Below, one piece after another: positions 10,077-28,765 of a DNA stretch of 64,000 bases. The first letter of the stretch is position 1. Every line of letters begins with the position of its first letter. The notes under the pieces were generated by a model that did no database searches, was not told where the DNA came from, and was given only the letters and a program-made list of their open reading frames with translations. This stretch comes from an uncultured Opitutaceae bacterium. Its GTDB lineage: Bacteria > Verrucomicrobiota > Verrucomicrobiia > Opitutales > Opitutaceae. Location: positions 1 through 64,000 of the forward strand of contig CAIYUN010000050.1 of the NCBI GenBank assembly GCA_903929355.1. The letters run 5' to 3'. The position numbers were made by a program, and so were the translations under genes.

Positions 10077-10085
10077 GCAATCCCC

Positions 10086-11643: not shown

Positions 11644-11794
11644 AGCCCATGGGCAGAACCAAAGGCCGGCCCCCACGGCAAGAAATGGCGAGCAATGCAC
11701 AAATTATGGCGGGCAGCTGAAACCGGGAAAAGCTAGACTGGCCCGGCAGCAACCCCACCGCCCGCCAAACCTCAAACCTGATCCACCCCACCCC

Positions 11795-12085: not shown

Positions 12086-12147
12086 ACGAAGTCCACTCCA
12101 CTGCGGACCCTGAACCCGCGGACACCCACCCAAGCCACTGCCCGCCC

Positions 12148-12603
12148 ATGCTCGCCAAAAAATCACCCCACCCGTCCCTTCGTGGTGCCAAATTGCATCC
12201 CCGCAAGTTGGCTGTCGCGGCGACGGAAAGCTCACCGCCCGGCTGGGCGTGGCACCGCCGCACTCTGCTCCGGTTGCGTCAGCAACTGGTGGCGGCATGC
12301 GCCTCATTGTTACAGGCAGGCACCGCGCCCGCAGAAACCGGAGGGATGGACCGGGCGGACAGCGCGAACGACCGTGAGAGTCGCGCGGGACTGCTGGCGA
12401 AACTGAATGCCGCGGAGGACCAACTGGGTGAGGTGGACGCTGCCCTGCAACGGCTCATCGACGGCAACTATGGCAGGTGTGCGGAAACCGGCCGACCCAT
12501 CGCCGCTGCACGACTGCGCGCCCTGCCTTGGACCCGGTTCAGCCGGGCCGCCGCAGGGAGGCACGAACGGAAGGGAGTAAAACCCGGAGAAACCACCCCA
12601 TGA
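12148..12603 (+). CDS. TraR/DksA-family-like protein with degenerate zinc site
   Basis: 151 residues. The C-terminal part AALQRLIDGNYGRCAETGRP, followed by IAAARLRALPWTRF, matches the DksA/TraR C4 zinc-finger region. Only the first cysteine is kept; the usual second pair is missing (TRFSRAA). An N-terminal coiled-coil-like segment (about 40-110) precedes it, as in DksA. Proteins of this family bind RNA polymerase through the secondary channel and modulate transcription under stress; this one would have to fold without zinc. ATG 12148 is chosen; a TTG at 12082 overlapping the previous stop is an alternative. The stop overlaps the next gene (ATGA). Confidence 0.7.
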   Translation: MLAKKSPHPSLRGAKLHPRKLAVAATESSPPGWAWHRRTLLRLRQQLVAACASLLQAGTAPAETGGMDRADSANDRESRAGLLAKLNAAEDQLGEVDAALQRLIDGNYGRCAETGRPIAAARLRALPWTRFSRAAAGRHERKGVKPGETTP

Positions 12604-13031
12604 TCACGCCTCTGCAAACCACCTATCGCGGATTGGAACGCTCCACGGCGGTCACCCGCTGCATCCGTGCGCGGACCGACAAGCTGGCAAAGCATTTCGG
12701 ACGCATCATCGCCTGCCGGGTCGTCATCGAGCAGCCCAACCGGCATCAAGTCCGTGGTCGCCTCTTTCACGTCCGCATCGATCTCACGGTTCCGGGTGCG
12801 GAGATTGTTGTGCGCCACGAACCGGCGGCCCATATCCCGCCGGCCGAAGCGGACGGCAGCGACGCGGTCGATCGGATCCCCGAAGCCGCCGCACCCCACA
12901 AGGACGCCTACCTGGCTATCCATGATGCGTTTGACATCGCCCACCGGCGACTGGAGGACCGGGAACGGCGACAACGCAAGAAAGCTCTCCACCAGGCCCC
13001 GCCTTGGCGTGTAGGCAAAGCCGCGGTCTGA
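12600..13031 (+). CDS. ribosome-associated HPF/RaiA-like protein
   Basis: 143 residues. The region TRCIRARTDKLAKHFGRIIA, followed by CRVVIEQPNRHQ and GRLFHVRIDLTVPGAEIVV, fits the beta-alpha-beta-beta-beta-alpha fold of hibernation-promoting factors (S30AE domain). It would stabilise inactive ribosomes in stationary phase or under starvation. It overlaps the TraR/DksA-like gene by four bases, and the pairing of two growth-arrest functions makes sense. The C-terminal tail is basic (RRQRKKALHQAP). It lacks the long dimerisation domain of long-form HPF, so it is the short type. Confidence 0.78.
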   Translation: MITPLQTTYRGLERSTAVTRCIRARTDKLAKHFGRIIACRVVIEQPNRHQVRGRLFHVRIDLTVPGAEIVVRHEPAAHIPPAEADGSDAVDRIPEAAAPHKDAYLAIHDAFDIAHRRLEDRERRQRKKALHQAPPWRVGKAAV

Positions 13032-13131
13032 ATTCATGACTGGTCCGGCGGGAACGCTCCCCCAACCTTTCCTAAGCGAGGCTCGCCGGGCGGACCGTAA
13101 CCGCTGACCAGGTCAACCGGGCAAGCTCCCT

Positions 13132-13719
13132 TCATGGTCCGGCGGGATCCGGGTTGTCATTCTTCCAGCACAGGACATCCGGCGCTTGCCGCGGTGTCGG
13201 TGCGGGAAGTGATGCCGGGTAGCCCACCGTCAGGGGAAAAACGGCGGCGACATCCGACGGAATCCCGAGCTCCTCCTTCACCTCCGGCAGATTCAGCCAG
13301 GGACGCGCGATCCCGATCGGGCAGGTGCCGAGGCCCGCCGCATGCGCGGCCAGCATGAAATTCTGGGCGGCCAGACAGCAATCCTCGGCCGGGTTGAGGC
13401 CCTCGTGCCGGGCGCAGATGACCAACAGGGTGCTGGCGTTGTAGAAGATGTTGTAGGTCGGGTCCGTCAGCGTGTCCCCCCGTTCATGAAACCCAAAGGG
13501 CGCGAGCACCATGGCGAGAAAATGCGCCTTGGCCCTGACCGAATACTCCAGCAGCCGGGGCCGCCCCTGAAAAACCGCGAAGGCCCAAGGCTGATGGTTC
13601 ATCGCGCTCGGAGCCTGAAGAGCGGCGTCGATGAGTTCGTTGAGGGTGGAGGCTGCCACCTTGGCCGAGGTGTAGTCCCGAATGGCCCGGCGCTGGTAGA
13701 TGGCTTCGATGAGTTCCAT
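13132..13719 (-). CDS. nitroreductase-family FMN oxidoreductase
   Basis: 195 residues. The N-terminal IYQRRAIRDYTSAKV and SAMNHQPWAFAVF motifs are those of the NfsA/NfsB-like nitroreductase superfamily, which binds FMN and uses NAD(P)H as donor; AAHAAGLGTCPIG is the usual C-terminal signature. The enzyme is a soluble homodimer in known members. The substrate is not predictable. It lies 27 bases downstream of the universal stress protein gene on the same strand, a pairing common in low-oxygen and stress regulons. Confidence 0.88.
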   Translation of the reverse strand: MELIEAIYQRRAIRDYTSAKVAASTLNELIDAALQAPSAMNHQPWAFAVFQGRPRLLEYSVRAKAHFLAMVLAPFGFHERGDTLTDPTYNIFYNASTLLVICARHEGLNPAEDCCLAAQNFMLAAHAAGLGTCPIGIARPWLNLPEVKEELGIPSDVAAVFPLTVGYPASLPAPTPRQAPDVLCWKNDNPDPAGP

Positions 13720-13746
13720 GGTGGAGGCCTTCGTCCTGACCGTGGG

Positions 13747-14208
13747 TCACTTTGCCGCCTTGGCGGCCTTGGGTTTGGCCGCGGGCACCACGAGCACCGG
13801 GCAGCGGGAGCGTTTGAGCACCCCGCTCGCCGTGCTGCCCGCCAGCAGGTCGTAAAAGGCCGAGTGGCCATGCGAGCCGATCACGATATAGTCCGCGGCG
13901 CATTTCCTGGCCTGGTCAATAATTTCCCTCACCGGCGGCCCGCTCCGGCACACCGCCTCCACCTTGGACACCCGCCGCCCGAGTGATTTCACCAAGGTGG
14001 TGAGGTGCCGGGAAGCGGCCCGCTCGACCCCTGCCGACATCAGGGCGACATCCGTGACCATCAGGTCGTATTCATTGATGATCACCGGTTGCTGGACAAC
14101 GTGCAGCAGCACCACGCGGCCGTTGATCGCGCGCGCCAGCGTGGCCGCCGCCGCCAAAACCGGCCGGCTGACGGTGGAAAAATCAATGGGCACAAGGATG
14201 GTTTTCAT
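13747..14208 (-). CDS. universal stress protein (UspA family)
   Basis: 153 residues, a single Usp domain. The start MKTILVPIDFSTVSRPVLAA and the ATP-binding signature GSHGHSAFYDLLAGSTASGV near residues 118-138 indicate the nucleotide-binding subtype. A Lys/Ala-rich tail (KPKAAKAAK) follows. It lies 115 bases downstream of the LuxR-type response regulator on the same strand and just upstream of the nitroreductase, so a common control is plausible but not shown. Confidence 0.93.
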   Translation of the reverse strand: MKTILVPIDFSTVSRPVLAAAATLARAINGRVVLLHVVQQPVIINEYDLMVTDVALMSAGVERAASRHLTTLVKSLGRRVSKVEAVCRSGPPVREIIDQARKCAADYIVIGSHGHSAFYDLLAGSTASGVLKRSRCPVLVVPAAKPKAAKAAK

Positions 14209-14323
14209 GAGAATGGCCGGAGGATCAAATGACCATGCGGCTGGGTCATGATAATGCCAAGCCCCGCCTGGCACTCCGCAGTATTTCGCAAAAGACCGCC
14301 GTTTTTTGCGGTTCGTCCAGGCG

Positions 14324-15028
14324 TCAGGTGCCACCGTCCTGCGTCTCGACCCAGCGGACAGCGTGGCGGATGAGCGCAGGCATGTCGGCCAGGCCGAGCT
14401 TCTCCTTGATCCTGGCGCGGTGAACATCCACCGTCTTGGGGCTGATATGAAGCTGCCCGGCGACTTCCTTGGTGCCCCGACCGTGACCGATCAGCTTGAA
14501 AACTTCAAACTCGCGGTCACTCAGCTTCTCAATCGGCGAACTGGAGCCACGGGGCCGGCGCCCGGACAACGCCCCGAGAATCTGCGCCGACATCCGGCTG
14601 CTGACATACACCTGTCCGGCGAGCACCTGGCGGATCGCGGCCAGCAGACTTTCGCCGCCGGCTTCTTTCATGATGTAACCCTGCGCGCCGGCCCGGAGCA
14701 CCCGCTCGGCGTAGATCGTCTCGTCATGCATGGACACCACCAGAATGGGCAAACTGGGCCGCTCCGCCCGCAAGTCCTTGATAAACTCAACCCCGCTGCG
14801 ACCCGGCATGGTGAGGTCGGTCAGGACCAGATCCGCCGCCGCCCGGGCCAGCTCGCGCATGGCCTCGGCTGGGCTGCCCGCCTCACCACAGACGGCCAGG
14901 TCGGGCTGCCGCTCAATGAGTTGCGCGAGACCCGAGCGCATAAACGGATGATCGTCCACCAACAGCACGCGTCGCCGGGTTGGCGGGGCGGGATCCGGCT
15001 TCTGTTTGGAGCTAACGACCGGCTTCAT
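14324..15028 (-). CDS. LuxR/NarL-family response regulator of the four-gene signalling operon
   Basis: 234 residues. The receiver domain (about 18-135) has acidic residues in LLVDDHPFM, phospho-acceptor Asp in DLVLTDLTMPG and Lys in GYIMKEA. The LuxR-type DNA-binding helix-turn-helix is near the C-terminus (LSDREFEVFKLIGHGRGTKE, KTVDVHRARIKEKLGL). It is the last gene of the operon and overlaps the REC-kinase gene by four bases, so it is the likely phosphorylation target of that kinase. Candidate targets are the adjacent stress genes and the divergent cytochrome/cupredoxin cluster. Confidence 0.93.
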   Translation of the reverse strand: MKPVVSSKQKPDPAPPTRRRVLLVDDHPFMRSGLAQLIERQPDLAVCGEAGSPAEAMRELARAAADLVLTDLTMPGRSGVEFIKDLRAERPSLPILVVSMHDETIYAERVLRAGAQGYIMKEAGGESLLAAIRQVLAGQVYVSSRMSAQILGALSGRRPRGSSSPIEKLSDREFEVFKLIGHGRGTKEVAGQLHISPKTVDVHRARIKEKLGLADMPALIRHAVRWVETQDGGT

Positions 15029-16095
15029 GGCGGGAGGGGCAATGAGCAGCGGATGGTGACTCCCCGGCCGGACTCCGACACGACATCCAGCCCCGCCCCG
15101 ATTAGGCGGGCGCGGTGTTGCATGACGCCCAATCCCACGCCCTCCGGCTTGGGGGCGCCAGCCGGCAGGCCCGTGCCGTCGTCGGTGATGTCCAGCACCA
15201 GAGTGCTCCCTTTCCGCACCAAGCGGACCAGCACGGATCGGGCACGCGCATGTTTGAGAGCGTTGTTCACCGCCTCTTGGGCGATGCGGTAAAGGTGCAC
15301 GGACCGGACCGGATCGGTCAGGGTGACGGAGTCGGGACACTCGAACCGGCAGCGCAGGCGGCCCAGCGAATTGGTCCGCGCGGCCAGCTCGGCCAGGCTG
15401 GTCTGGAGGGCGTCGGGCCCGCCGCCGATAGGCACCAGGCCGTGGGCCAGCAGCCGCGTCTGCATGACGGCCTCGCGCAAAAGGCGGGCCAGCTCTTCGA
15501 GGCCCCGGGCAAGCGGCGGGTGGCCGGCGGCGTCCATCTTGAGCGCGGAGCACATCAGCTCAATCGCGGTCAGTTGCTGGCCCAGATTGTCGTGCAAATC
15601 CGCCCCGATGCTGTGGCGCTCGCGCTCGCCCACCGAGATGATCTCCGCCTCGAGCCGCCGATGCTCCCGCTGCGCGGCGACGAGCTCCTCGCCTTGCGTG
15701 ATCGCGGTCAGCGCGCGCCGGACGACGTTGGGCAGCAGGTCGAGCAGGCCGGTGCTCTTCATCACATAGTCGAGTGCGCCCTGGCGCATCATTTCAACCG
15801 CAGCCTTCTCGTCCCCCTGGCCGGTCACGACGACAAACGGCACCGGGCGTTCGTCGCGCCGCAGCCGCTCCAGCAAAACCGGCGCATCCAAGTCGGACAG
15901 CTTCAGATCGAGCAGCATCAGACTGGGGCGGTGGCTCTCCAGCCATTTGAGTGCCGCGTGGCCGGAGCCGGCGGTGGCGACCTCATACCCCTCGGCGCGC
16001 AGGGACTCGGCCATCAGGATGAGCAGGCCCTCGTCGTCGTCCACGACCAGGATTCGCGGCAATGATTTGGGACCGGACACGGCGGGCGGTTTCAA
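15025..16095 (-). CDS. receiver-histidine kinase (REC + HisKA_3 + HATPase)
   Basis: 356 residues without membrane segments. An N-terminal receiver domain (about 12-130; VVDDDEGLL, LMLLDLKLSD, YVMKSTG) is joined by a coiled coil to a HisKA_3 region (ERERHSIGADLHDNLGQQLT, phospho-His in DLHDN) and an HATPase domain (RIAQEAVNNALKHA, DDGTGLP). It is a cytoplasmic kinase gated by phosphorylation of its own receiver, a design that links the upstream kinase to the downstream LuxR regulator. Start: TTG at 16095 overlaps the previous stop; GTG at 16080 is an alternative. Both ends overlap neighbours, which suggests tight co-translation. Confidence 0.9.
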   Translation of the reverse strand: MKPPAVSGPKSLPRILVVDDDEGLLILMAESLRAEGYEVATAGSGHAALKWLESHRPSLMLLDLKLSDLDAPVLLERLRRDERPVPFVVVTGQGDEKAAVEMMRQGALDYVMKSTGLLDLLPNVVRRALTAITQGEELVAAQREHRRLEAEIISVGERERHSIGADLHDNLGQQLTAIELMCSALKMDAAGHPPLARGLEELARLLREAVMQTRLLAHGLVPIGGGPDALQTSLAELAARTNSLGRLRCRFECPDSVTLTDPVRSVHLYRIAQEAVNNALKHARARSVLVRLVRKGSTLVLDITDDGTGLPAGAPKPEGVGLGVMQHRARLIGAGLDVVSESGRGVTIRCSLPLPP

Positions 16096-16535
16096 GCGGT
16101 GCCGACTGAGGGGATGTGGAGCAGCATGAGGAACAGTCCCAGGCGCCGGATGGCCTCGCTGAACCGATCAAAGTCCACCGGCTTTTGGATGTAGACGTTG
16201 CACCCCAGCCGGTGGCAGCGTTCCACCTCGCGAATGTCGTCGGTGGTGGTGAGCATGATGACGGGCAGCTGGCGCAGCACCGGGTGTTCCTTGAGGCGGC
16301 GCAGCACCTCGATCCCGTCCACCTTGGGCATGCGGATGTCGAGCAGAACCAGATAGGTTTCGCCGTCCACCCTCGACGGGCCCGGCCCGGTTTGGAAAAA
16401 GAAATCCAGCGCCGACTGCCCGTCGCGCAGATGTTGGATGCGGTTGCGGAATCCGGCGATCTCCAGGCTTTCGCGCGCCAGGATGGCATGGCCTTCGTCG
16501 TCATCCACGATGATGATGGTGGGAGCCTGGTGCAT
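16092..16535 (-). CDS. single-domain response regulator
   Basis: 147 residues, a receiver domain only: TIIIVDDDEGHAILARESLE, phospho-Asp in YLVLLDIRMPKVDG, switch Thr in IMLTTTDD, Lys in YIQKPVD. There is no output domain. The type matches the Rcp1-like regulators that follow phytochrome- or PAS-kinases. ATG 16535 shares a base with the stop codon of the PAS kinase gene. It may shuttle phosphate from the PAS kinase to the REC-kinase next door, or act by protein contact. Confidence 0.92.
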   Translation of the reverse strand: MHQAPTIIIVDDDEGHAILARESLEIAGFRNRIQHLRDGQSALDFFFQTGPGPSRVDGETYLVLLDIRMPKVDGIEVLRRLKEHPVLRQLPVIMLTTTDDIREVERCHRLGCNVYIQKPVDFDRFSEAIRRLGLFLMLLHIPSVGTA

Positions 16536-18247
16536 CAGGGCGGGGACGCGGGGGTGGCGGGCAGGGACACGCAAAAGGTTGAACCCGCCCCGGCCCGGCT
16601 CTCAACCCAAATTTTGCCCTGCTGGCGCTCCAGCACCCGTTGGGCAATGGTGAGCCCCAGCCCCTCGCCGGCCGTGGCCTCGGGGTCGAGCCGGTGGAAG
16701 ATTTCGAAAATTTTTGCCTGATGCTCGGGGGCGATGCCGATGCCGTTGTCGGCCACGGCATAGACGGCGGTGTCCTGCTCGATCCGGCCGCCGAGTCTGA
16801 CGCGCAACGGACGGTCGGCGGCCCGGTATTTGAGCGCGTTGTCGAGCAGGTTGGCAAAAACCTGGCTGGTCTGGACCGCGTCCCCCAGGCACGGCGGCAG
16901 CGGCGCCACCTGCACCTCGGCCCCGGCCTCATCGAGCTGGAATTTCATCGCCGCCACGACTTCCGCCACGATCGAGTCCATGTCGAGCACCCGGATGGTC
17001 AGCTCCACCCGCCCGTAGCGCGAATAACGCAGCAAACCCGCCAGCAACGCCTCCATCTTGCGCACGCCGGCGTTGATGAAGCGCAGTGCCCTGGGAATCG
17101 CCACCTCGACCGGCGGCCGCAGGTCGTCGGCCGGGACCGCGCCGGTGCCGGCCCGCGCGAGGGCCGCCTGAATGGTGTCGCAGGCACGGGTGAGCTGCCG
17201 GCCGAAGCCCTGCACGTTCACCAGCGGCGACCGCAGGTCGTGCGACACGGTGTAGACGATCGCCTCCAGCTCCTTGTTCTTTTGCGCCAGATCGGCCGAC
17301 GTGTGCCGCAGGGCGGCCTCGTCGGCCTTGCGCTGGGTGATGTCGGTCCGGATGGCGACATACTGGCACGGTCTCCCCGCCTCGTCGAGGAGGGGACAGA
17401 TGGTGGTGTCCACCCAGTAGAGCGCGCCGTCCTTGGCGCGGTTCCTGATCTCGCCGTGCCACACCCGGCCGCGGCTGATCGTGCCCCACAGCTCGCGGAA
17501 AAACTCCTTCGGATGGTGCCGCGAGTTGATGATCCGGTGATCCTGCCCGAGCAGTTCCTCCCGTGCATACTTCGAAATCGCGCAAAACTTGTCGTTGACA
17601 TGGGTGATCCGCCCGGCGGCATCGGTGATGGCGACAATCGAGTGCTCGTCGAGGGCCGCCTTCACATCGCGCAGCTCATGAAGGGTCGCCAGGAGCCTTT
17701 GCTCCTCCTGCTTCTGCCCCGTGATGTCCCGCCCGACGCTCGCGGCTCCGATGATCCGACCGGCGGCGTCGCGGATCGGGGAGATGGCCATCGACACATG
17801 GACCACCGAGCCGTCCCGGCGGACGCGCACGGTGTCGAAATGCTCCACCCGCTCGCCGCGCGCGATCCGGGCAAGGACTTCCGCCTCTTCGGCCCGGCGC
17901 CCGGGGGGGAAGAGCAGTTGCATCGGCCGGCCGATGATCTCCTCCGCTCGGTAGCCGAAGATTTTCTCCGCCCCCGCATTCCACGAGGTGATGACCCCCG
18001 TGGTGGTCTTGGTGATGATCGCGTCGGTGGAGGATTCGGCGATCGCGGCGAACCTCTGGCGGGCCTCGTCGTCGGGATCGTCCGCGCCATGAGGTCCGGC
18101 CGCCGGCAGTACCTGCTGCCGGGCCGGCAGCTCATCCCTTGACCTGCTTTCATCATTCGGGGTTGGCACAGCCGCGGTTAATGGCGGCCTGGGCGCGGGG
18201 AGGCAAGCAAGTTGGCGGCCTTCGCCATCGGTCGGGATAGACCCCAT
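16535..18247 (-). CDS. cytoplasmic PAS-PAS sensor histidine kinase
   Basis: 570 residues, no membrane segment. A disordered N-terminus (1-60) is followed by PAS 1 (about 63-185: AIAESSTDAIITKTTTGVIT), PAS 2 (about 200-315: DEHSIVAITDAAGRITHVND with a PAC-type tail), HisKA (about 340-420; EAIVYTVSHDLRSPLVNVQG, phospho-His in SHDLR) and HATPase (about 450-565; FANLLDNALKYR, DNGIGI, GEGLGLTIAQ). PAS domains often sense redox state, oxygen or small ligands; no cofactor-binding residues can be assigned. It is the first gene of the four-gene operon and divergent from the PocR/AraC-type regulator gene. Confidence 0.92.
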   Translation of the reverse strand: MGSIPTDGEGRQLACLPAPRPPLTAAVPTPNDESRSRDELPARQQVLPAAGPHGADDPDDEARQRFAAIAESSTDAIITKTTTGVITSWNAGAEKIFGYRAEEIIGRPMQLLFPPGRRAEEAEVLARIARGERVEHFDTVRVRRDGSVVHVSMAISPIRDAAGRIIGAASVGRDITGQKQEEQRLLATLHELRDVKAALDEHSIVAITDAAGRITHVNDKFCAISKYAREELLGQDHRIINSRHHPKEFFRELWGTISRGRVWHGEIRNRAKDGALYWVDTTICPLLDEAGRPCQYVAIRTDITQRKADEAALRHTSADLAQKNKELEAIVYTVSHDLRSPLVNVQGFGRQLTRACDTIQAALARAGTGAVPADDLRPPVEVAIPRALRFINAGVRKMEALLAGLLRYSRYGRVELTIRVLDMDSIVAEVVAAMKFQLDEAGAEVQVAPLPPCLGDAVQTSQVFANLLDNALKYRAADRPLRVRLGGRIEQDTAVYAVADNGIGIAPEHQAKIFEIFHRLDPEATAGEGLGLTIAQRVLERQQGKIWVESRAGAGSTFCVSLPATPASPP

Positions 18248-18304
18248 GGAGCCCGGGCGCGAACCTGCTACGCTGCGGCCACCATATCCGTCCAGTCCGG
18301 GGGG

Positions 18305-18319
18305 TAGGGAAAATCCCTA
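18305..18319. promoter_or_regulatory. palindromic operator candidate between divergent operons
   Basis: TAGGGA-AAA-TCCCTA is a perfect 6-bp palindrome with a 3-base centre. It sits in the 133-base gap between the PAS kinase operon (minus) and the AraC-type regulator (plus), 62 bases from the plus-strand ATG. A weak promoter candidate for the plus side is TTACGG at 18343 with TAGCCT at 18366. Either the LuxR-type or the AraC-type regulator could bind here. Confidence 0.5.
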
Positions 18320-18380
18320 GCGTGATCCAGCATCGGCCCCAATTACGGCCGCCAGCGGGACCTGCTAGCCTCACCATGAC

Positions 18381-19340
18381 ATGAGAAACGAATCCAGCAC
18401 CACCACCTCCTCCACCTACCCCGAGACCGCGCTGGTCGCGACGCGCCAGTCGCGTGACTTCGTCACGCACCTGCAGAAGTCCGCTCTTTTCCGGGACTAC
18501 CAACGGGCTTACGAGACAACTACCGGTTTGCCTCTGGCGGTCCGCGCCATCGGGACTTTCCAACTCCCGTTTCAAGGCTCGCGCAAGGCGGGTGCCTTCT
18601 GCGCCCTCATGGCTGGGCGCAACAAGACCTGCGCCGCCTGCCTTCGCGCCCAGCAACAGTTGGAGGAGAAGGCCGACGCCAGGACGCAGACGGTAGAGTG
18701 CTTCGCCGGGCTCAGCGAGTCGGCGGTGCCGGTCCGCGTCGGGGACAAGACCCTCGCCCACCTCCAAACCGGCCAGGTGTTGCTGCGACCGCCGACCCGG
18801 GCGGGTTTCCAGCGCATCCGCCGTCAGCTCGACCGCTGGAAGACGGACCTTGACCGGAAGAAACTCTCGGCCGCCTACTTCCAAATTCGCGTCGTCAGCC
18901 GGGCTCAATACGGCTCCATCCTGCGGCTGCTCGGCATCTTCGGCGAGCATCTTTCCTCACTCAGCAACCAGCTCATGGTCCGCGAGGCCGGGGCCGAGCT
19001 GCCCGCCGTGGCGCGGGCGCGCCAGTTCATCGCCGCCAACCTGTCCGAGGCGCTTTCGCTGGGCCAGGTCGCGCGTGCCGTGGGGATGAGCCCGTGCTAC
19101 TTTTGCCGGGTGTTCAAGCAGACCACGGGGCTGACCTTCACCGCCTATGTCGCACGCCTGCGGGTGGAACGGGTGAAACACCTCCTCGATCAGCCCCATG
19201 CGCGCGTCAGCGAGGCCGCCTTTGCCGCGGGATTCCAGTCGCTTTCGCAGTTCAACCGGGTCTTCCGCGATGTCACCGGCCAGGTGCCGTCAGGTTACCG
19301 GGCGCAACCCGGCCTGGAAGCCCTTTCCCATGCCGCCTGA
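18381..19340 (+). CDS. PocR-domain AraC-family transcription regulator
   Basis: 319 residues. The N-terminal half (about 25-170) looks like a PocR ligand-binding domain: FRDYQRAYETTTGLPLAVRA, cysteines in GRNKTCAACLRAQ and TVECFAGLSESAVPV, then LAHLQTGQVL. The C-terminal AraC domain (about 215-312) has two helix-turn-helix units (SLGQVARAVGMSPCYFCRVF; VSEAAFAAGFQSLSQFNRVF). The cluster of cysteines could bind a metal or respond to redox, which is an inference. It stands 45 bases upstream of the cytochrome-porin gene on the same strand and is the likely regulator of that cluster. Confidence 0.9.
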   Translation: MRNESSTTTSSTYPETALVATRQSRDFVTHLQKSALFRDYQRAYETTTGLPLAVRAIGTFQLPFQGSRKAGAFCALMAGRNKTCAACLRAQQQLEEKADARTQTVECFAGLSESAVPVRVGDKTLAHLQTGQVLLRPPTRAGFQRIRRQLDRWKTDLDRKKLSAAYFQIRVVSRAQYGSILRLLGIFGEHLSSLSNQLMVREAGAELPAVARARQFIAANLSEALSLGQVARAVGMSPCYFCRVFKQTTGLTFTAYVARLRVERVKHLLDQPHARVSEAAFAAGFQSLSQFNRVFRDVTGQVPSGYRAQPGLEALSHAA

Positions 19341-19384
19341 TTTCGGCCTCCGTCCCCCCACCACTCCCTTCGCCCCCTCCACCC

Positions 19385-20761
19385 ATGAAAAATAACGCCC
19401 TCCGCTCCGTCTCCCTTCTCCTGGCCGGCCTTGCCCTGGCCCCGCTGGCCGCCGAGGCCGTGCCCAGTTTTGCCCGGCAGATGGACATGCAGTGCATCGC
19501 GTGCCACACCGAGTTTCCCCTGCTCAACAACTTTGGCCGCTTGTTCAAGCTCAGCGGCTACACCCTGAGCGTCGGACAGAGTGAGCTGCCACCGATCGCA
19601 GTGATGCTCCAACCCTCGTTCACCCACACCCAGCAAGGCCAGGCGGGCGGCGCGGCCCCGGGGTTCAAAGACAACAACAACCCGGCGCTAACCCAGGCGA
19701 GCCTCTTTTACGCCGGCCGGCTGTTCGGCCCCTATGCGACCAATTTGTTCGGCCCGGACGGCGCCGCGATAGCCAACAAATTCGGGGTCTTCATCCAGGC
19801 AACCGACGATGGCGTGGCCAAGCAATGGCATTGGGACAACACCGAGCTGCGCTTCGCGAGCACCGGTGAGGTGGCGGGACTGCCGGTGACCTATGGCGTC
19901 TATGCGAACAACAACCCCATGATGCAGGATGCCTGGAACAGCACGCCCGCCTGGGGGTTCCCCTTCACGGGCAGCAGTCTCGCTCCCACGCCCGCGGCGG
20001 CCCCGCTGCTGCAAGGCGGACTGGCCCAGCAAGTGGGCGGCGTTGGGGCCTATGCGCTCGTGGCTGAATCCTATTATATCGATGTCGGCGGTTATCAGGC
20101 ATTGAACTCACAGTTCCAGAAATCGGTTGGGATTGATCCCACGGGCCAAACCCAGCTCGCCGGTACCGCGCCCTACTGGCGCGCCGCCTATACCAAGACA
20201 GTGAACAACAGCTCCTTTGAAATTGGCACCTTCGGGCTGGTCGCCAACACCTTTCCCGGCCGCGACTCCAGCGCCGGGCAGGACCGGATGGCAGACATCG
20301 GAATCGACGCCCAGGCCCAGACCTCGTTCGACCAGCATGACTTCACCGCGATGCTGACCTGGATCAACGAGCGCGAGAACTGGAACGCCAGCCAGACACT
20401 CGGCAACACCACCAACAGCGCCGACAACCTGCACAGTTTCAAAGCCACGGTGGACTATCTTTACGACAAGACCTGCGGCGGAGCCGTGCAGCTCTTCTCC
20501 GTGGATGGCAGCACGGACCCTCTGCTGTATGGCGGCAGCGCGACCGGCTCGCCCCGCAGCAACGGGATGGTGCTCCAGCTCAACTACCTGCCGTTCAATA
20601 AAGCCGGCGGACCGGCCCTCTGGCCCCGGAGCAACGTGAAGTTCTCCCTCCAATACACGATCTACCGCTGTTTCGACGGCGCCAGCCGGAATTATGACGG
20701 CCTGGGTCACAACGCCTCGGACAACAACACCCTCTATCTGGAGGCTTGGATCGCATTCTGA
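19385..20761 (+). CDS. outer-membrane cytochrome-porin fusion, Cyc2-like
   Basis: 458 residues. A signal peptide (about 1-25) is followed at once by one c-type heme site, CIACH (37-41), inside AVPSFARQMDMQCIACHTEF and NNFGRLFKLSGYTL. The remaining 390 residues have the alternating pattern, Gly/Asn-rich turns and terminal aromatic residue (EAWIAF) of an outer-membrane beta-barrel. One heme at the N-terminus plus a barrel is the architecture of Cyc2, the outer-membrane iron oxidase of some Fe(II) oxidisers, and the heme-flanking residues look similar. Related proteins of unknown function also occur in non-iron-oxidisers, so metal oxidation is only a hypothesis. The next two genes encode blue-copper proteins. 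Confidence 0.75.
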   Translation: MKNNALRSVSLLLAGLALAPLAAEAVPSFARQMDMQCIACHTEFPLLNNFGRLFKLSGYTLSVGQSELPPIAVMLQPSFTHTQQGQAGGAAPGFKDNNNPALTQASLFYAGRLFGPYATNLFGPDGAAIANKFGVFIQATDDGVAKQWHWDNTELRFASTGEVAGLPVTYGVYANNNPMMQDAWNSTPAWGFPFTGSSLAPTPAAAPLLQGGLAQQVGGVGAYALVAESYYIDVGGYQALNSQFQKSVGIDPTGQTQLAGTAPYWRAAYTKTVNNSSFEIGTFGLVANTFPGRDSSAGQDRMADIGIDAQAQTSFDQHDFTAMLTWINERENWNASQTLGNTTNSADNLHSFKATVDYLYDKTCGGAVQLFSVDGSTDPLLYGGSATGSPRSNGMVLQLNYLPFNKAGGPALWPRSNVKFSLQYTIYRCFDGASRNYDGLGHNASDNNTLYLEAWIAF

Positions 20762-20802
20762 CCCGGCCCGAACGTCCCGGCAGCCCCCCAAAACTTCCTC
20801 CC

Positions 20803-21267
20803 ATGAAAACCAAACCAACCGTCATGCTTCTGCTTCTCGCGTTCGGCGCGATCCCGGGTCTCCGGGCTGATCCCGCCCCGGCGGCCCCCTTGGTGGTCAC
20901 GATCAGCGCCAATGACGCCATGAAGTACACGGTCACCAAGATCGAGGCCCATCCGGGCCAGATGATCACCCTGCATTTCAAGAACGCCGGGACCCTGCCC
21001 AAGGAGGTCATGGGGCACAACTGGATCCTGCTCAAGCTGGGTGTGACCAACGACGCCTATGCCACCCCCGCCGCCGCCGCCAAGACGGAGGGCTTCGAGC
21101 CCAAGGCCCTCGCGGACCAAGTGCTCGCCTCGGTTCCCCTGCTCGGGGCCGGGCAATCGGCCGACGTCACCTTCCCCTGCCCGACCGCGCCCGGAACCTA
21201 CAACTATCTCTGCTCCTTCCCCGGGCACGCCATGCTGGGAATGAAGGGTGTCCTGATCGTCAAGTGA
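20803..21267 (+). CDS. periplasmic blue-copper protein (azurin-like cupredoxin)
   Basis: 154 residues with a signal peptide (about 1-22). Copper ligands are visible: H72 in EVMGHNW, C137 and H142 in YLCSFPGH and M147. The spacing is C-x4-H-x4-M, one longer than in azurin (C-x4-H-x3-M) and, as I recall, the same as in rusticyanin and auracyanin. The core NDAMKYTVTKIEAHPG and LHFKNAGTLPKEVMGHN is azurin-like. It should carry single electrons in the periplasm. It begins 41 bases after the cytochrome-porin gene and could accept electrons from it or donate to it. Confidence 0.92.
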   Translation: MKTKPTVMLLLLAFGAIPGLRADPAPAAPLVVTISANDAMKYTVTKIEAHPGQMITLHFKNAGTLPKEVMGHNWILLKLGVTNDAYATPAAAAKTEGFEPKALADQVLASVPLLGAGQSADVTFPCPTAPGTYNYLCSFPGHAMLGMKGVLIVK

Positions 21268-21364
21268 CGCCCGCGCCACCCTCCCAGCTCCCGGACCACA
21301 GAACCAACCTCGCCCACCAACCCAACCGACGCTTCGCCCGCTTCGCCCGCTCCTCCCTCCTCCC

Positions 21365-21848
21365 ATGAAACGAACCCTCCTGCTCCTCGCCGCTGCGCTC
21401 GCGCTCACGGCGTGCGCCCCGAAATCCTCCGCCCCCGACACCGGCCCGGCCGCGTCCGCCTCCGGCCCCCCGTGAGATTGATCTCACAGGCGGCGACACC
21501 ATGAAATACAACCTCACCCGCATCGAGGCCACCCCCGGCGAAGCGCTGAAACTGGTCCTCAAGAACATCGGCTCGGTCCCCAAGGAGGTGATGGGCCACA
21601 ACTTCGTCCTGCTCAAAAAGGGCACCGACATCGCGGCCTTCGCGCAGACGGCCGCCACTGACAAGGCCAGCAGCTATCTGCCCCCCGCGCTGCTGGACCA
21701 GGTGCTCGTCCACACCAAGCAACTCGGCCCGCAGCAGACCGAGGAGCTGGACTTCAACGCCCCCACCGAGCCGGGCGAATATGACTACCTCTGCACTTTC
21801 CCCGGCCACTACCTCATCGGCATGAAAGGCGTGCTGGTGGTGAAGTAA
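21365..21848 (+). CDS. lipoprotein blue-copper protein (azurin-like), apparent frameshift
   Basis: A lipoprotein leader (MKRTLLLLAAALALTAC, lipobox LTAC) is followed by a Ser/Pro/Ala linker and a TGA. Removing one C from the run of six at 21466-21471 continues the frame as REIDLTGGDTMKYNLTRIEA into a full cupredoxin domain of about 160 residues in total. Ligands: His in EVMGHNFV, then Cys, His and Met in YLCTFPGHYLIGM with the same C-x4-H-x4-M spacing as its neighbour. Without correction, only a leaderless 115-residue frame from ATG 21501 remains, which could not reach the periplasm. The corrected product would be tethered to a membrane. Confidence 0.8.
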
Positions 21849-21872
21849 CCAGACCAACCCACCCATGACCTC

Positions 21873-22382
21873 ATGAAAAAATCTCTCCTCACCCTTACCC
21901 TCGGCCTGACGCTGGCCTTCGTCCTCGCGCTCGCCGCCACCCGGGCCGGAGCGGCGGCGGAAGCCACCGGGACGGACAACCAGGCCCTCGGGCAGCAGCA
22001 GGTGGAGCGGCTCTGGGCCGGTTTTTCGAGGATTGATCTCGCGGCCCTCGACGAGTTCGTCGCGCCCGGCTTTCAAAGCCTGCACGAGGACGGGGCGCGG
22101 GACTGGCCCCAGGAGAGGATGTTGGTCGCCATGCTCAAACTCTCCCCCTACGTCCTGACCGACTACAAGGTCACCCGCAGCGGCGACGTGCTGGTGGTCA
22201 CCTACCAATGCAAAGTCGGTGAGACCATCGTGGCCGCCCGCCTCGCCAAGGTGTCCACCCCGCGCCTGGATGTATTCCAGCAGACTGGCTCCGGGTGGAA
22301 GCTCCTCTCGCATGTGAACGTCCGCAAGCTGACCCCGGTGCCCGGTGAGCCCCCGATGATGATCGCGGGCCCACTGGACTGA
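21873..22382 (+). CDS. secreted NTF2-like (DUF4440-type) protein
   Basis: 169 residues with a signal peptide (about 1-30). The mature part has the NTF2/SnoaL-like alternation: QQQVERLWAGFSRIDLAALD, FVAPGFQSLHEDG, then beta strands DVLVVTYQCKVG and WKLLSHVNV. Such proteins form small cone-shaped barrels that bind or modify small ligands; no catalytic residues can be named. It lies 24 bases after the second cupredoxin gene and is probably in the same transcript. A link with electron transfer is suggested only by position. Confidence 0.75.
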   Translation: MKKSLLTLTLGLTLAFVLALAATRAGAAAEATGTDNQALGQQQVERLWAGFSRIDLAALDEFVAPGFQSLHEDGARDWPQERMLVAMLKLSPYVLTDYKVTRSGDVLVVTYQCKVGETIVAARLAKVSTPRLDVFQQTGSGWKLLSHVNVRKLTPVPGEPPMMIAGPLD

Positions 22383-22426
22383 ACCATCAACGCCAGGGGC
22401 ATCGACCAAGCAACTAACCATCCCTC

Positions 22427-22804
22427 ATGAACTCAACCAAGCAAACCTCACCCCGGATGCCTGACATCCCGGAACATCTGATTCGCGAGCGCGCCTATTT
22501 CCTCTGGCTGGAGCGGGGCTCCCCGCATGGTGCCGACGGTGACGATTGGTTCACCGCGCAGCAGGAACTGCAGGCCACCGTCACCCCCGACACCAATGGA
22601 CAGCCGCACCACGCCGAAGCCACCGCGCACTTCTCCATCCGCCAGACGGTGGCGGAGCACCTCAGCGACCCCACCCACCGGTTTCACGCCCCGGGGGCAA
22701 CCCACGATGACCGCCGCGACATTGTGGCCGGTGAGGCGGCTCAGCGCGTGCGCGGCCGGCGCCTCGGCGGCTCGCTGCGGGCCGATCAGAAAAAGGCGAA
22801 ATGA
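22427..22804 (+). CDS. DUF2934-domain protein
   Basis: 125 residues. Residues 16-45 (HLIRERAYFLWLERGSPHGA, then DDWFTAQQEL) are the DUF2934 signature, a short helical motif of unknown function. The rest is polar and probably partly disordered, with a basic C-terminus. There is no signal peptide, so the protein is cytoplasmic, unlike its upstream neighbours. It lies 44 bases after the NTF2-like gene and 33 bases before the desaturase. Confidence 0.8.
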   Translation: MNSTKQTSPRMPDIPEHLIRERAYFLWLERGSPHGADGDDWFTAQQELQATVTPDTNGQPHHAEATAHFSIRQTVAEHLSDPTHRFHAPGATHDDRRDIVAGEAAQRVRGRRLGGSLRADQKKAK

Positions 22805-22837
22805 CCGTCCAGCCTGATCGTGTTGCAAGCACCAGAC

Positions 22838-23902
22838 ATGAACCCGCCGGTCGATCCAGCCACCACCGCGCCCCCTTACGCCCCGGCCGCATGGAAAGCG
22901 GCAGTGCTCAAATACCAGCAGCCTAGCCGTGGGCGGGCGCTCTGGCAACTGACCAACACGCTGGGTCTGTATGCACTGCTGTGGTATCTGGTCGACCGCA
23001 GCCTGTCGGTTTCATGGTGGCTGGCGGCTCCGCTCGCCATCCTGGCCGGGGGCGTCCTGATCCGCGTTTTCATCATCTTCCACGACTGCGGGCATGGATC
23101 ATTCTACAAGTCCAAGACGGCCAATGATGTGATCGGATTCATCACCGGCATGCTCACCTTCACCCCCTACTACCATTGGCGGTGGGAGCACTCCGTCCAC
23201 CATGCCAGCAACGGCAACCTGGACCAGCGCGGCACGGGGGATGTCTGGACGCTGACCGTGCAGGAATACCTGGAGGCTTCGCGCGGGCAGCGTTTTGCCT
23301 ACCGGCTGGCCCGCAACCCGGTGGTGCTGTTTTTGCTTGCGCCGCTTTTCCTGTTTATTGTTCTCCAGCGTTTTCCCTCCCGGGGGGCCAAACCGCGCGA
23401 ACGCCTCTCGGTTCATTGGATGAACCTGGCGATCCTGGCCATGGCGGCGACGATGGTCGCGCTCGTCGGACTGAAGGTTTATGTGCTGGTCCAGCTCACG
23501 ATGATGGCCGTCGCCAGCTCGGCCGGCATCTGGATGTTTTATGTGCAGCATCAATTTGAGGAGGTGCAATGGCAGCGCGCCGACGACTGGGATTTTGCGG
23601 CGGCGGCGCTGCAGGGCAGCTCCTATTACAAACTGCCCCGGATCCTGCAGTGGTTCACGGGCAACATCGGCTTTCATCATATCCACCACCTGAGCGCGCG
23701 CATTCCGAACTACAACTTGGAGCGCTGTCATCGGGAGATGGAGGCCACCCTGGTGGTGAAGCCGATCACCCCGGCCTCCAGCCTGCGGTCGCTCTTTCTC
23801 CGCCTGTGGGACGAGGAACAAAAGCAACTGGTGGGGTGGCGCACCATGCGAGCCCGTCGGCGGGCGCTCAAGGCGGCGGCCGCGGGAAAATTGAAACCCT
23901 GA
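22838..23902 (+). CDS. membrane fatty acid desaturase
   Basis: 354 residues with four or more membrane helices. The three histidine boxes of the di-iron desaturase family are present: HDCGH, HSVHH and HHIHH. The order and spacing fit acyl-lipid desaturases that introduce a double bond into membrane fatty acids using oxygen. ATG 22838 is preferred over GTG 22820. It follows the DUF2934 gene on the same strand; whether it belongs to the redox cluster or is separate is open. Adjacent envelope redox genes could provide reducing power, which is speculation. Confidence 0.9.
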   Translation: MNPPVDPATTAPPYAPAAWKAAVLKYQQPSRGRALWQLTNTLGLYALLWYLVDRSLSVSWWLAAPLAILAGGVLIRVFIIFHDCGHGSFYKSKTANDVIGFITGMLTFTPYYHWRWEHSVHHASNGNLDQRGTGDVWTLTVQEYLEASRGQRFAYRLARNPVVLFLLAPLFLFIVLQRFPSRGAKPRERLSVHWMNLAILAMAATMVALVGLKVYVLVQLTMMAVASSAGIWMFYVQHQFEEVQWQRADDWDFAAAALQGSSYYKLPRILQWFTGNIGFHHIHHLSARIPNYNLERCHREMEATLVVKPITPASSLRSLFLRLWDEEQKQLVGWRTMRARRRALKAAAAGKLKP

Positions 23903-23942
23903 ACGGGTTGTCACTCAGAACCGCCGGGAGATTTCTCATTAA

Positions 23943-25277
<1,335 letters not shown>

Positions 25278-25308
25278 TCCCCCCGTTGGACCGGGATCGA
25301 CGGGGGAT

Positions 25309-25968
25309 TCAGCCCATGCCGAGAGGTCGGAGGGTCTCGGCGTATTCGTGACAGACACAAATGGGGCACAGGCCATGGCTGAAGCGGAGACCGAGGTGCT
25401 CGTCAAAGTAGCTCTCCAAGGGGACCCATTCGCTCTTTTCGTTGCGGATTTTTTTGCAACTGGCGCAAATCGGCACCACCGGTCCGGACCGGAGCCGGTT
25501 GCGCAGGGTGAGCAGCTCCGCGTGCAGGTTCACCCGCTCCCGCTCCAGCCAGCGCATCCGGCGCCGCTCGTCCGCCCGCCGCAGCGCCCGCCGCACGGCC
25601 GGAAGCAGATCAGCGAGCCGGTTCTTGCTGACCCAGTCGTCCGCCCCGCGCGCCAACGCCCGGGACATCAGTTCCTCCCCGGGCATCCCGGTGACGACGA
25701 CAAAAGGCACGTCGGGCAGAACGGCCCGCACCCGGGCCAGGGCGCCAAAGCTGTCGAACGCGACCCCGCCATGATCGCAGAGCACCAGATCGGGGGCCTG
25801 CTGCGCCAGGGCGGCGACCAACCCCGCCTCCGTCTCGACGCGCGTCGGCGCCAGGTGGAGCTCGCCTTTGCCCAGCTCATGCAAGACCAGCTCGAAATCT
25901 TCCGGACGGTCCTCGACCATGAGGAGGTGAAGCGCGTCGCGCGCGCCGGGGTCGGTGGTCGGGGTCAT
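25309..25968 (-). CDS. receiver-domain protein with C-terminal cysteine module
   Basis: 219 residues. The receiver domain is at about 12-135 (LMVEDRPEDFELVL, phospho-Asp in PDLVLCDHGG, Lys in WVSKNRL). A coiled-coil linker follows (RRMRWLERERVNLHAELL). The C-terminus has VPICASCKKIRNEKSEWVPL and SHGLCPICV, a paired-cysteine module usually found after receiver or PAS domains in two-component proteins and probably metal-binding. There is no DNA-binding domain, so output is likely by protein contact. It lies 111 bases downstream of the hybrid kinase on the same strand and is a candidate partner. Confidence 0.87.
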   Translation of the reverse strand: MTPTTDPGARDALHLLMVEDRPEDFELVLHELGKGELHLAPTRVETEAGLVAALAQQAPDLVLCDHGGVAFDSFGALARVRAVLPDVPFVVVTGMPGEELMSRALARGADDWVSKNRLADLLPAVRRALRRADERRRMRWLERERVNLHAELLTLRNRLRSGPVVPICASCKKIRNEKSEWVPLESYFDEHLGLRFSHGLCPICVCHEYAETLRPLGMG

Positions 25969-26079
25969 GGTCAGCAACAAAGCCGCCCCCGGCGGTTTAT
26001 CAAAAAGGTTTCTCCCTTATTTCCGGGAAGGAGATTCCCCTATCGGCCGGGCGGCCGGCCACCGGGGCGAAACCAGGCC

Positions 26080-28765
26080 TCAGGCCTGGCCGCCGGCGGG
26101 AGGTGGCGACTCGCGGGTCAGGATCTTGCGCAGGGTGTTGAGGATCACGTCGGCGGTGTAGGGCTTCGGGATGAAACATCCCAAACCGATGCCGGCCGCC
26201 CGGGCCATGGCGCTGTGGCTGCCCGAACCCATGCCACTTGATCCGATGATTTTCACGTGGGGGTCAATGGTCCGGAGCGCCACGATCGTCGCGGCCCCGT
26301 CCATGACCGGCATCGACATGTCGGTGATCACGACGGCGATTTTCTCCCGATGTTGCGCGAAAAGCGAGACCGCCTCGGCCCCGTTGGCCGCGAGCAGCAC
26401 CTTGTAGCCGAAACGCTCGAGCGTCTTGCGGGAAATCTCGCGCACGGCCTCCTCGTCATCCGCCAGCAACACCAGCTCGCCGTTGCCCTGCGGCAGACCG
26501 GTGCTGGCGAGCGCGACGCCCTCCGCCGCACCCGGGGTGGTGACGGCCGGCAGGTAGACCTTGAAGGTGCTCCCCTTGCCCGGCTCGCTGTAGAAGTTGA
26601 CGAAACCCCCGTGGCTCCGGACCAGCGCCCGTACGCTGGACAAGCCCAGCCCCGTGCCTTTTCCCACCGCCTTGGTGGTGAAAAAACGGCTCAAATATCT
26701 TCTCGTGGAGGCCTGGCGGAACGCCGGTGCCAGTGTCGGTCACGCTGAGGAGGACGTACGGACCGGGCCGGGATTCCGGATTGAGCCCGGCGTAGGTCTC
26801 ATCGATTGCCGTGTTTTCCAACCGGAGCGAAAGCACGCCGCCGTCGGGCATCGCATCGCGGGCGTTTACACAAAGGTTGAGCAAAACCTGGTGCAGCTCC
26901 GTCGGATCGCCGGTGACCGGCCAGGGGTCCGGGGCGGTCTCGGACGCGCAGCGGATGGATTTGGGGAAGGTGTCGTGCACAATCTGCGCCACCTCGCGGA
27001 CGACATGCACCGGAGACACCACCACCCGCACCCCCTCGCCGCCGCCCCGCCCGAAAGCCAGCATCTGCCGGAGCATCTGGGCGCCGCGCCGCCCGTTGGT
27101 CTCCAGCATCGCCAGCAACCGCTGCGTGTCCGCGTCGTCGTGCTTGAGCCGGAGGAGCTCAATGGCCATGAGCATGGGCGCGAGCACGTTGTTGAGGTCG
27201 TGCGCGATGCCGCCGGCCAGGGTGCCGATGCTGTCGAGGCGCTGGATGCGGTGAAACTGGGCCGCGAGTTTCTTCTTCTCGGTGATGTCGGTGTTGATGG
27301 ACATGAAGGACGACGGCCGTCCCTCCTGGTCCCGCACCAGCGTCCAGCTGGAGTCCACGATGATCTCGCCGCCGTCTTTCCGCACCTGGCGCAGCTCGCC
27401 CGCCCAGCCGCCGTGTTGGACGACGGCGGTCGCCGCCTTTTTGAACTCCAGATCGTCGAAATAAATGAGCTCGGTGACCCGGCGGCCCACGGCCTCTGCC
27501 GCGGTCCAGCCGTAAATCTGCTCGGCGCTTCGGTTCCAAAATCGGACACGGTGGTCGAGATCGCGCACGATGATGGCGTCATGGGCCTTGTCCAACAGCG
27601 CGGCCTGCTCGCGCAGCTGATCCTCGGCCTTCTGCCGCGCGGTGATATCCTGCTGCACGGTGACAAAATGGGTGGTCGCGCCGCTGTCATCCTTCACCGG
27701 TGCGATGGTCTGTTCGGCGATGTAGAGCCGCCCCTCCCGGCTGCGGTTGGTGATCCGCCCCTGCCAGACCTTGCCCGCCAGGATGGTGGCCCATAGCTCC
27801 CGGTAGAATCCCTGGTCATGCGCGCCTGATTTCACGAGGCTCGGTTTCCGGCCGACGATCTCGGCCATTGGGAAGCCGCTGAGGGTGACGAAGGCGGAGT
27901 TGGCCCAGAGGATCACCCCGGAGTGGTCCGTGATGAAAATCGCGTTGGCCGCCGCCTCCAGCGCGGCGCTCCGCAGCTTGAGCTGCTCCTCGGCGAGTTT
28001 GCGCCCGGTGATGTCCGTGATCACCGCCACGCTTTCCACCAAGACTCCCTGGGCGTCAAACCGCGGCCGGGGCGTGACCAAGGTGTTGACGAGCCCTCCG
28101 TCCTTGCGCAGCCAGGCGATCTCATAATCGTCCCGGGCTCCTTTTAACCGCCGGGCCATTTGCTCGCGGAGAATGGCCTGGTTTTCCGGGTCAAACAGGC
28201 CGGCCACCGGCCGCCCGACCAATTCCCCCATGGTATAACCGAGCATTTCGCACGCCCGCCGGTTCATAAACGTGAGGCGACCATCCCGATCCTGCACCGC
28301 CACCCCCTCGCTCATGGCCTCGATCAGGTTGCGGTGGATTTCTTCGCTGCGGCGCAAGGCCGCCATCATCCGCAGGCTTTCCTGCCGCCGCTTGGTCTCC
28401 TCCATGGCGTGAAGGACGGCCTGGCCCAGGCGCGCGAGCCGGTCCTTCAACAGGTAATCACTGGCTCCGTGCTTCAACGCCGTGACCGCCAGATCCTCGC
28501 CCCCGGTGTCGGAGATGATGATGAACGGCAGGTCCAGGCCGCTCTGCTGCAAAACCCGCCAGGCCACGGGGGGATCGATTCCGCTCACCGCGTCATCGCA
28601 CAACACCACGTCCCATGGATTCGTCGACAAGGCCGCGCGCATCGCCTCCACCGTCCGGACGCATTCAGCCACCGGGTCGAAGCCATCCCGCCGCAGTACC
28701 GCCAGGAGCAATCCGGCGTCGGCCTCGCAGTTCTCGATGAGCAAAACGTGGAGCAACTTCTTCAT
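26080..28765 (-). CDS. large hybrid histidine kinase (REC-PAS-PAS-PAS-HisKA-HATPase-REC), apparent frameshift
   Basis: About 894 residues after one correction. Order: N-terminal receiver (VLLIENCEADAGLL, CDDAVSG), PAS domains at roughly 135-255, 265-380 and 390-505 (GHRVTELIYFDDLEF region), HisKA (HRIQRLDSIGTLAGGIAHDL, phospho-His in AHDLNN), HATPase (LNLCVNARDAMPDGG) and a C-terminal receiver (LLADDEEAVREISRKT, VITDMSMPVMDG). The frame breaks at the A6 run 26681-26686 (T6 on the coding strand), within the G2-box: EPFFHHQGG versus the expected EPFFTTKAVGKGTGLGL. Deleting one T restores it. ATG 28765 is chosen as the start of the first receiver. Soluble; signal unknown. Confidence 0.85.

Follow-up and report, generated by a model that had tools for sequence, protein, structure and literature searches.

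The window analysed here is a stretch of 64,000 nucleotides of contig CAIYUN010000050.1 from an uncultured Opitutaceae bacterium (Verrucomicrobiota). It encodes a Cyc2-like outer-membrane cytochrome-porin (hereafter, the heme-porin) followed on the same, plus strand by blue-copper proteins, or cupredoxins. The heme-porin gene (19385–20761) specifies 458 amino acids, with one heme site (CXXCH) and, by prediction, a barrel of 16 strands. Its signal peptide, recognized by eye from the hydrophobic start, covers residues 1–25 and ends in AEA before VPS (19385–19459). The heme mini-domain AVPSFARQMDMQCIACHTEFPLL (19457–19525), supported by a motif count over 38 sequences, comprises an AXPXFAR motif, CXXCH (19493–19507) and PXL, and the porin barrel occupies residues 71–457 (19595–20755), as judged from the secondary structure of the model and from structure matches. 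Downstream lies CUP1 (20803–21267), a 154-aa cupredoxin of the azurin/auracyanin type with a signal peptide visible by eye (PF00127, E 2.4e-14). It is followed by a 36-aa lipoprotein signal peptide with an LTAC lipobox (21365–21475) that belongs to a second cupredoxin, CUP2, whose copper domain (21477–21848; PF00127, E 1.2e-12) is read in another frame. The positions assigned to the barrel, CUP1 and the CUP2 core in a preliminary description of this DNA were confirmed. As argued below, we consider it reasonably probable, from sequence, structure modeling and analogy, that the heme-porin and its azurin constitute an envelope electron conduit between the cell surface and the periplasm, with the net flow more likely directed inward.

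The CXXCH motif of the heme-porin corresponds to residues 37–41 and is the only one in positions 10000–30000 of the window in all six frames, in agreement with the single N-terminal heme on a predicted β-barrel that had been proposed for it. By the same scan, the region lacks the multiheme cytochrome beside or inside a porin that characterizes Mtr/Pcc-type systems. The heme-ligating residues C37, C40 and H41 are kept in 38 of 38 sequences, while A25 and P27 are invariant in 22 sequences. The window motif reads AVPSFARQM, and PXL lies four residues behind the CXXCH (CH-TEF-PLL). Neither Pfam nor NCBIfam returned a family match for the protein at E-values up to 0.1, and a Protein Data Bank sequence search with the barrel yielded no meaningful relative (best E 1.4).

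AlphaFold2 modeling from 38 sequences predicted 16 long strands within residues 71–457, with a mean predicted local distance difference test score (pLDDT) of 87.7 and a predicted template modeling score (pTM) of 0.85. This model supersedes an earlier one built from 22 family sequences (pLDDT 68.4, pTM 0.72), which was weak at residues 1–47. Compared with solved structures, the 38-sequence model gave Z-scores of 21.0–22.3 and root-mean-square deviations of 3.3–4.7 over 291–321 residues, nearly all of the 50 matches listed being general porins; the 22-sequence model had scored 17.2–19.1 against solved porins and reached a best E of 1.9e-7 in Foldseek. No cytochrome-porin appeared among the matches listed by Foldseek or VIA, which is not evidence of absence. 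A barrel failing to fold as a porin had been named in advance as grounds for abandoning the idea; the prediction points the other way.

To place the heme-porin relative to Cyc2, we compared it with the published definition; papers are cited here by PMC number, as far as their accessible excerpts go. According to PMC8406198, Cyc2 carries AXPXFAR[Q/K][T/Y], CXXCH and PXL, has at least 365 residues and includes a porin, and the authors' collection was filtered by PXFAR[Q/K][T/Y]. The window protein has the required length, an export signal read by eye and one N-terminal CXXCH, and in the predicted model a 16-strand porin barrel is fused to the heme domain. Its motif departs from the definition solely at the last residue, where M replaces T/Y. 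The same position is the only deviation in 18 of the 22 Opitutales sequences; three match the motif, CXXCH and PXL in full, and one (L093) has T at the last position and lacks PXL. Since the published filter demands T/Y, most of the Opitutales clade would therefore have been left out of that collection.

Profile comparison by hhalign against FARQTGAACLSCHF-type (SCHF) cytochrome-porins from the phylum of genome G550 gave a probability of 99.2% (E 2e-19) over 280 columns, and comparison with the FARKY type gave 98.3% over 60 columns, restricted to the heme domain. The SCHF group consists of proteobacterial cytochrome-porins taken for Cyc2, no named Cyc2 sequence having been compared. Both groups come from a search in which 84 of 398 genomes matched, mostly in the N-terminal part, and we infer that neutrophilic Cyc2 clusters are represented among them. 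Kinship with Cyc2-like families is thus borne out by profile and motif, and the gene does not fall far outside Cyc2, an outcome that had been set beforehand as a refutation. Judged by its sequence, the heme-porin is a clade of its own among Cyc2-like cytochrome-porins, sharing their heme-domain motif. It is probably homologous to Cyc2-type porins and probably works like them, yet we stop short of classifying it as Cyc2 itself.

The cupredoxins belong to the superfamily by Copper-bind (PF00127) scores of 54 bits for CUP1 and 48.5 bits for CUP2, against a gathering cut-off of 21.2. The copper ligands of CUP1, read from the sequence, are H72, C137, H142 and M147, and the set of four (His/Cys/His/Met) is conserved in 16 of 16 aligned cupredoxins. 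NCBIfam azurin (TIGR02695) was the top model for both proteins (71.8 and 62.1 bits), each remaining below the equivalog cut-off of 105.1. The preliminary description had likened them to rusticyanin by their C-x4-H-x4-M loop, a spacing that it attributed to rusticyanin as well. The loop is present in both CUP1 and CUP2; however, it does not single out rusticyanin because auracyanin B (CTFPGHYLAGM) shares it, while the azurin loop is C-x4-H-x3-M. With scores of 26.3 and 26.8 bits in the rusticyanin model (TIGR03095), far under the equivalog cut-off of 146.7, rusticyanin identity is rejected and the proposed likeness is not supported.

Of the two cupredoxin genes described behind the barrel, CUP2 is not a clean gene: no export signal is present in the open reading frame that begins at 21501. 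CUP2 is 55% identical over 123 columns to AZ3, a third azurin of the same genome, and 50% identical to CUP1. AZ3 is an intact lipoprotein (L112:9754-10299) encoded next to a caa3-type oxidase operon. Separately, a 40-residue cupredoxin fragment, 70% identical to CUP1 and with the look of a decayed duplicate, lies behind the azurin gene in a genome of the same genus (L030:3724-3843).

The neighborhood of the heme-porin was surveyed at 26 Opitutales loci from 21 genomes, which comprise all matches from the family and phylum searches other than those confined to the N-terminus. The phylum sample (387 genomes) contained seven genomes with a match, two of them N-terminal only; an order sample (372 genomes) contained 13, of which five were N-terminal only; a scan of genome contigs gave only two loci. 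An azurin-type gene lies directly 3' of the heme-porin at 14 of the 26 loci (the window, L030, L031, L032, L035, L040, L042, L043, L044, L045, L048, L049, L050 and L093), although the heme-porin gene of L050 is itself interrupted. A script applied to 23 of the loci scored 13 azurin genes, 12 of them immediately 3' of the heme-porin and the thirteenth being CUP2, while placing them at random within the locus 20,000 times gave 1.3 such neighbors on average and at most 6; the azurin neighbors of L049 and L093 were scored apart from this count. The cupredoxin is accordingly retained beside the barrel in relatives; that no relative would keep it there had been stipulated as a refutation, and this is not what was observed. 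An ordinary artefact was rejected because full-length homologs in other genomes keep the same neighbor. At L044 (L044:1949-9915), genes for ActD, COX1 and c-type cytochromes lead up to the heme-porin and azurin pair.

In a second form, found at seven Opitutaceae loci (L033, L034, L036, L037, L038, L039 and L047), the heme-porin is the last gene of an operon of constant order: PocR, monoheme cytochrome c, a 640-aa FAD/4Fe-4S protein, Rieske protein, cytochrome b, hexaheme cytochrome and heme-porin. The reference copy lies on the minus strand at L033:8483-16667, and the same order recurs in the six others. Genomes G131 and G021 carry both the azurin and the operon forms. This seven-gene set possibly provides a full path from the surface to quinone or NAD(P)H and may be the more remarkable of the two arrangements. 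The hexaheme protein scores above the SoxX cut-off (89.6 versus 61 bits), a match that we read as reflecting its c-type domains.

The operon bears on the direction of flow, as quinol or NAD(P)H electrons could also be carried outward by such a set. Under this alternative, CUP1 would feed respiratory electrons to the heme-porin and on to Fe(III), humics or an electrode at low oxygen. With scores below the cut-offs throughout, the cytochrome b resembles ExtP/ExtQ and the hexaheme cytochrome resembles ExtS, proteins encoded in an operon for selenite/tellurite reduction; the Fe(III) reducer A. cryptum JF-5 (PMC8790237) carries a 33% identical homolog on a plasmid; and verrucomicrobial porin-multiheme clusters have been proposed to hand electrons to humics (PMC5615132). 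However, when the genome to which the window belongs was queried with the cytochrome b of the operon, the hexaheme/b/Rieske set was not found, the best match being a 39% identical b-c fusion adjoining a Rieske gene. That genome has three COX1 genes, and oxidase genes precede the pair in L044 and adjoin AZ3. Azurins are usually of high potential, which suits a role as acceptor better than as donor to humics. Outward operation of the same conduit thus appears unlikely. Inward flow is favored because of this usual high potential and the oxidase genes near one pair (L044) and near AZ3.

Homologs outside the phylum were sought in 385 genomes of the proteobacterial class to which the L029 record belongs; 14 genomes matched, at 17 places, of which 16 were read (15 regions and L029) and one weak fragment, in G789, was left out. 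An electron carrier adjoins the heme-porin at 11 of the 16 loci. Pfam supports a plastocyanin-type cupredoxin directly 3' at five of them (L101, L104, L106, L107, L108) and a c-type cytochrome in the same position at four (L096, L102, L103, L109). At the remaining two (L029 and L105), a gene resembling the high-potential iron-sulfur protein (HiPIP) lies 5', with scores of 20.8 and 19.7 bits, slightly below Pfam's 22. Nine plasmid records also contained homologs. In six of the seven regions opened, the next 3' gene is annotated as a c-type cytochrome (L089 and L092 being closely alike), and a Caballeronia plasmid region has a HiPIP gene 5' as well.

Not every neighborhood speaks of respiration. 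Stress-type genes (universal stress protein, hemerythrin, BON) lie near the homolog in two of the seven plasmid regions. A more distant relative of the FARKY type, from a remote genome within the phylum (L094:8446-10661), is followed at once by a gene for a CCP/MauG di-heme peroxidase (Pfam E 5e-60). Combined with the lack of a named Pfam or NCBIfam family for the heme-porin, these observations are compatible with a non-respiratory protein engaged in sensing, NO or peroxide detoxification, or heme or metal handling, next to which the azurin would be a local redox or copper-handling protein. Still, where neighbors recur, they form a respiratory set or are small electron carriers from more than one unrelated family, which suggests electron transfer as the common requirement; we regard the non-respiratory explanation as quite improbable.

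Phylogenetic analysis recovered the 22 Opitutales sequences as one clade (100/100) in a tree of 44 rows. On this tree, the azurin label required 4 changes against 11.3 in shuffles and the operon label 2; the plastocyanin label, in another part of the tree, required 2 against 4.8. As the changes fall in separate parts of the tree, the azurin pairing in Opitutales and the plastocyanin-type pairing in Proteobacteria look independent. In a 61-row tree, Opitutales (100*), FARKY (100*) and the 'FARQTGAACLSCHF' group (96*) each occupied one side of a branch; Opitutales joined the proteobacterial FARQT group, and the SCHF and FARKY groups stood on branches separate from these two. This tree was built by a quick method after dropping four rows (L034, L035, L036, L051), with a program warning that long branches meet, and its root is not fixed.

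Returning to the inward conduit, the chain can be modeled by analogy with A. ferrooxidans, where electrons leaving Cyc2 reach cytochrome c by way of the shuttle rusticyanin, and a further cupredoxin, AcoP, is located at the oxidase (PMC4059628). An exported protein, by its signal sequence, would form the predicted 16-strand barrel in the outer membrane, carrying a small N-terminal single-heme domain. This domain, as in Cyc2, would exchange electrons with a partner at or outside the outer membrane and, as the conserved pairing suggests, hand them over to periplasmic CUP1. From CUP1, electrons may proceed to a terminal oxidase, perhaps via an anchored azurin, either CUP2 or the intact AZ3. Electrons taken up in this way, from reduced humics or from Fe(II) in solution, might supplement a heterotrophic metabolism under control of a PocR/AraC-type regulator, while other Opitutaceae would use the same barrel with the hexaheme cytochrome and the cytochrome b/Rieske/flavoprotein set instead. 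The surface-to-periplasm carriage envisaged in the preliminary description is thus partly supported, by the predicted porin, the Cyc2-like profile and motif and the conserved cupredoxin pairing, but not in its link to rusticyanin.

Several observations weigh against this interpretation. CUP2 is broken in this assembly, with its lipoprotein signal and copper domain in different frames. The family is patchy, with matches in 20 of 200 Opitutaceae genomes and 10 of 49 genera. Azurin is not obligatory: among the 26 Opitutales loci, seven have the bc-type operon, one (L041) a c-type cytochrome 3' of the heme-porin, and four no carrier gene, namely the complete L046, the fragments L052 and L053, and L051, which is divergent (36% identity) and has only 66 bp of contig after the gene. 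An adjacent carrier was likewise not found at five of the 16 proteobacterial loci (L097, L098, L099, L100 and L110); at L097 and L100, a c-type cytochrome gene lies farther away, and the gene next to L110, possibly for a c-type lipoprotein, has no Pfam family match. The c-type label is unclustered on the 44-row tree (9 changes, shuffled mean 9.1), and the tree groups taken for Cyc2 are anchored by no named, biochemically tested Cyc2 sequence. Furthermore, a proposal in PMC8790237 has electrons moving outward through Cyc2 and rusticyanin during Fe(III) reduction. The genome has no RuBisCO and hence no sign of autotrophy by that route; the search did not extend to other pathways of carbon fixation.

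Upstream of the heme-porin, a 319-aa regulator with a PocR sensor and an AraC-type domain is encoded on the plus strand (18381–19340; Pfam PocR E 4.3e-21, HTH_18 E 1.6e-23) and ends 44 bp before the heme-porin start. It is 32–37% identical to the PocR proteins opening the operons at all seven relatives' loci and 54–57% identical to two in L048. Divergent from it, on the minus strand (14324–18247), lie genes for a PAS histidine kinase and response regulators, and the same kinase and regulator clusters are also represented close to the heme-porin genes of L039 and L048. No sigma-70 promoters were found at the locus, and terminator-like sites numbered 6 compared with 4.0 in shuffles. Farther downstream, the genes for a DUF4440 protein, a DUF2934 protein and a desaturase (21873–23902) were rejected as part of the module because they have no relatives in the gene clusters of the relatives' loci. 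The last of these (22820–23902) encodes a fatty-acid desaturase near NCBIfam Delta(5) desaturase DesA (425.8 bits against a cut-off of 500), likewise without a relative in the gene clusters of other loci.

Elsewhere in the order, Complex I subunit genes (Oxidored_q4 and Oxidored_q6 by Pfam) adjoin the heme-porin at L038:10094-11103, and Pfam identified large and small subunit genes of a NiFe-hydrogenase close to the porin fragment at L053:6162-8935. A further type of single-heme protein, distant from the first (VPAWSR...CMSCH), occurs in Opitutaceae at L095:8549-10119, where the match is N-terminal only and a small CXXCH protein precedes it, as well as in genomes G116, G160 and G043.

In a broader sense, the single-heme porin might be an all-purpose port for electrons in the outer membrane whose periplasmic partner can be exchanged: azurin in Opitutales; in Proteobacteria, a plastocyanin-type cupredoxin, a c-type cytochrome or HiPIP; and, in the second Opitutaceae form, a full operon that could connect the cell surface with quinone and NAD(P)H. 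We put this forward tentatively, as somewhat doubtful. Such exchange would show that the heme port is retained while the periplasmic carrier is replaced. Cyc2-type porins serve as markers of microbial iron oxidation, and a separate verrucomicrobial clade with a conserved copper partner and a bc-like form would add extracellular electron exchange to the repertoire of a phylum known rather for heterotrophs that degrade polymers. On the reading of a general port, heterotrophic Verrucomicrobia would be electron-uptake (or export) organisms overlooked by surveys, because 18 of the 22 sequences lack a residue on which the published filter insists. The heme domain and the azurin also make up a two-protein system in which electron transfer could be measured directly.

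The literature search found no published account of the single-heme porin type in Opitutaceae. An azurin gene paired with a cytochrome-porin gene was not encountered in the accessible excerpts of PMC4059628, PMC12016527, PMC5371394, PMC10367259 and PMC10654088, and those of PMC11312239 and PMC10367259 assign Cyc2 to other phyla. The statement in the preliminary description that no system of this kind is described in verrucomicrobia was nevertheless too strong, given the porin-multiheme systems reported for Verrucomicrobia including Opitutus terrae (PMC5615132) and the zero to two unspecified 'oxiEET' genes listed for Verrucomicrobiota (PMC12285243).

Together, our results suggest that the heme-porin and azurin pair is probably related to, but distinct from, the known iron-oxidizing pores. 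With Cyc2 (PMC8406198, PMC7029218) it shares the export signal, the single CXXCH with AXPXFAR[QK] upstream and PXL downstream, a length above 365 aa and the 16-strand barrel; it differs in the motif ending in M rather than T/Y, the separate clade and the azurin neighbor, and Cyc2 belongs to iron oxidizers. The arrangement recalls rusticyanin and AcoP (PMC4059628) in having a cupredoxin partner for an outer-membrane single-heme porin and a further cupredoxin at the oxidase, whereas the window cupredoxins are of the azurin/auracyanin type, as their 26 bits in the rusticyanin model against 146.7 indicate. Auracyanin and azurin are matched in family and ligand set, and auracyanin B also in the loop, but the window proteins stay under the azurin equivalog cut-off and are encoded beside a heme-porin. 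In Acetobacteraceae, Cyc2 adjoins mono- or diheme cytochromes, including Cyc2-Cyc1 pairs (PMC10715153); there, too, a cytochrome-porin stands beside a small periplasmic carrier, which is of the c type in contrast to the azurin here. A comparison within the same phylum, including Opitutus, is with the verrucomicrobial porin-multiheme complexes (PMC5615132), which are likewise proposed outer-membrane electron conduits: they combine a separate porin with an eight-heme cytochrome, whereas the protein described here carries one heme fused to its predicted barrel.

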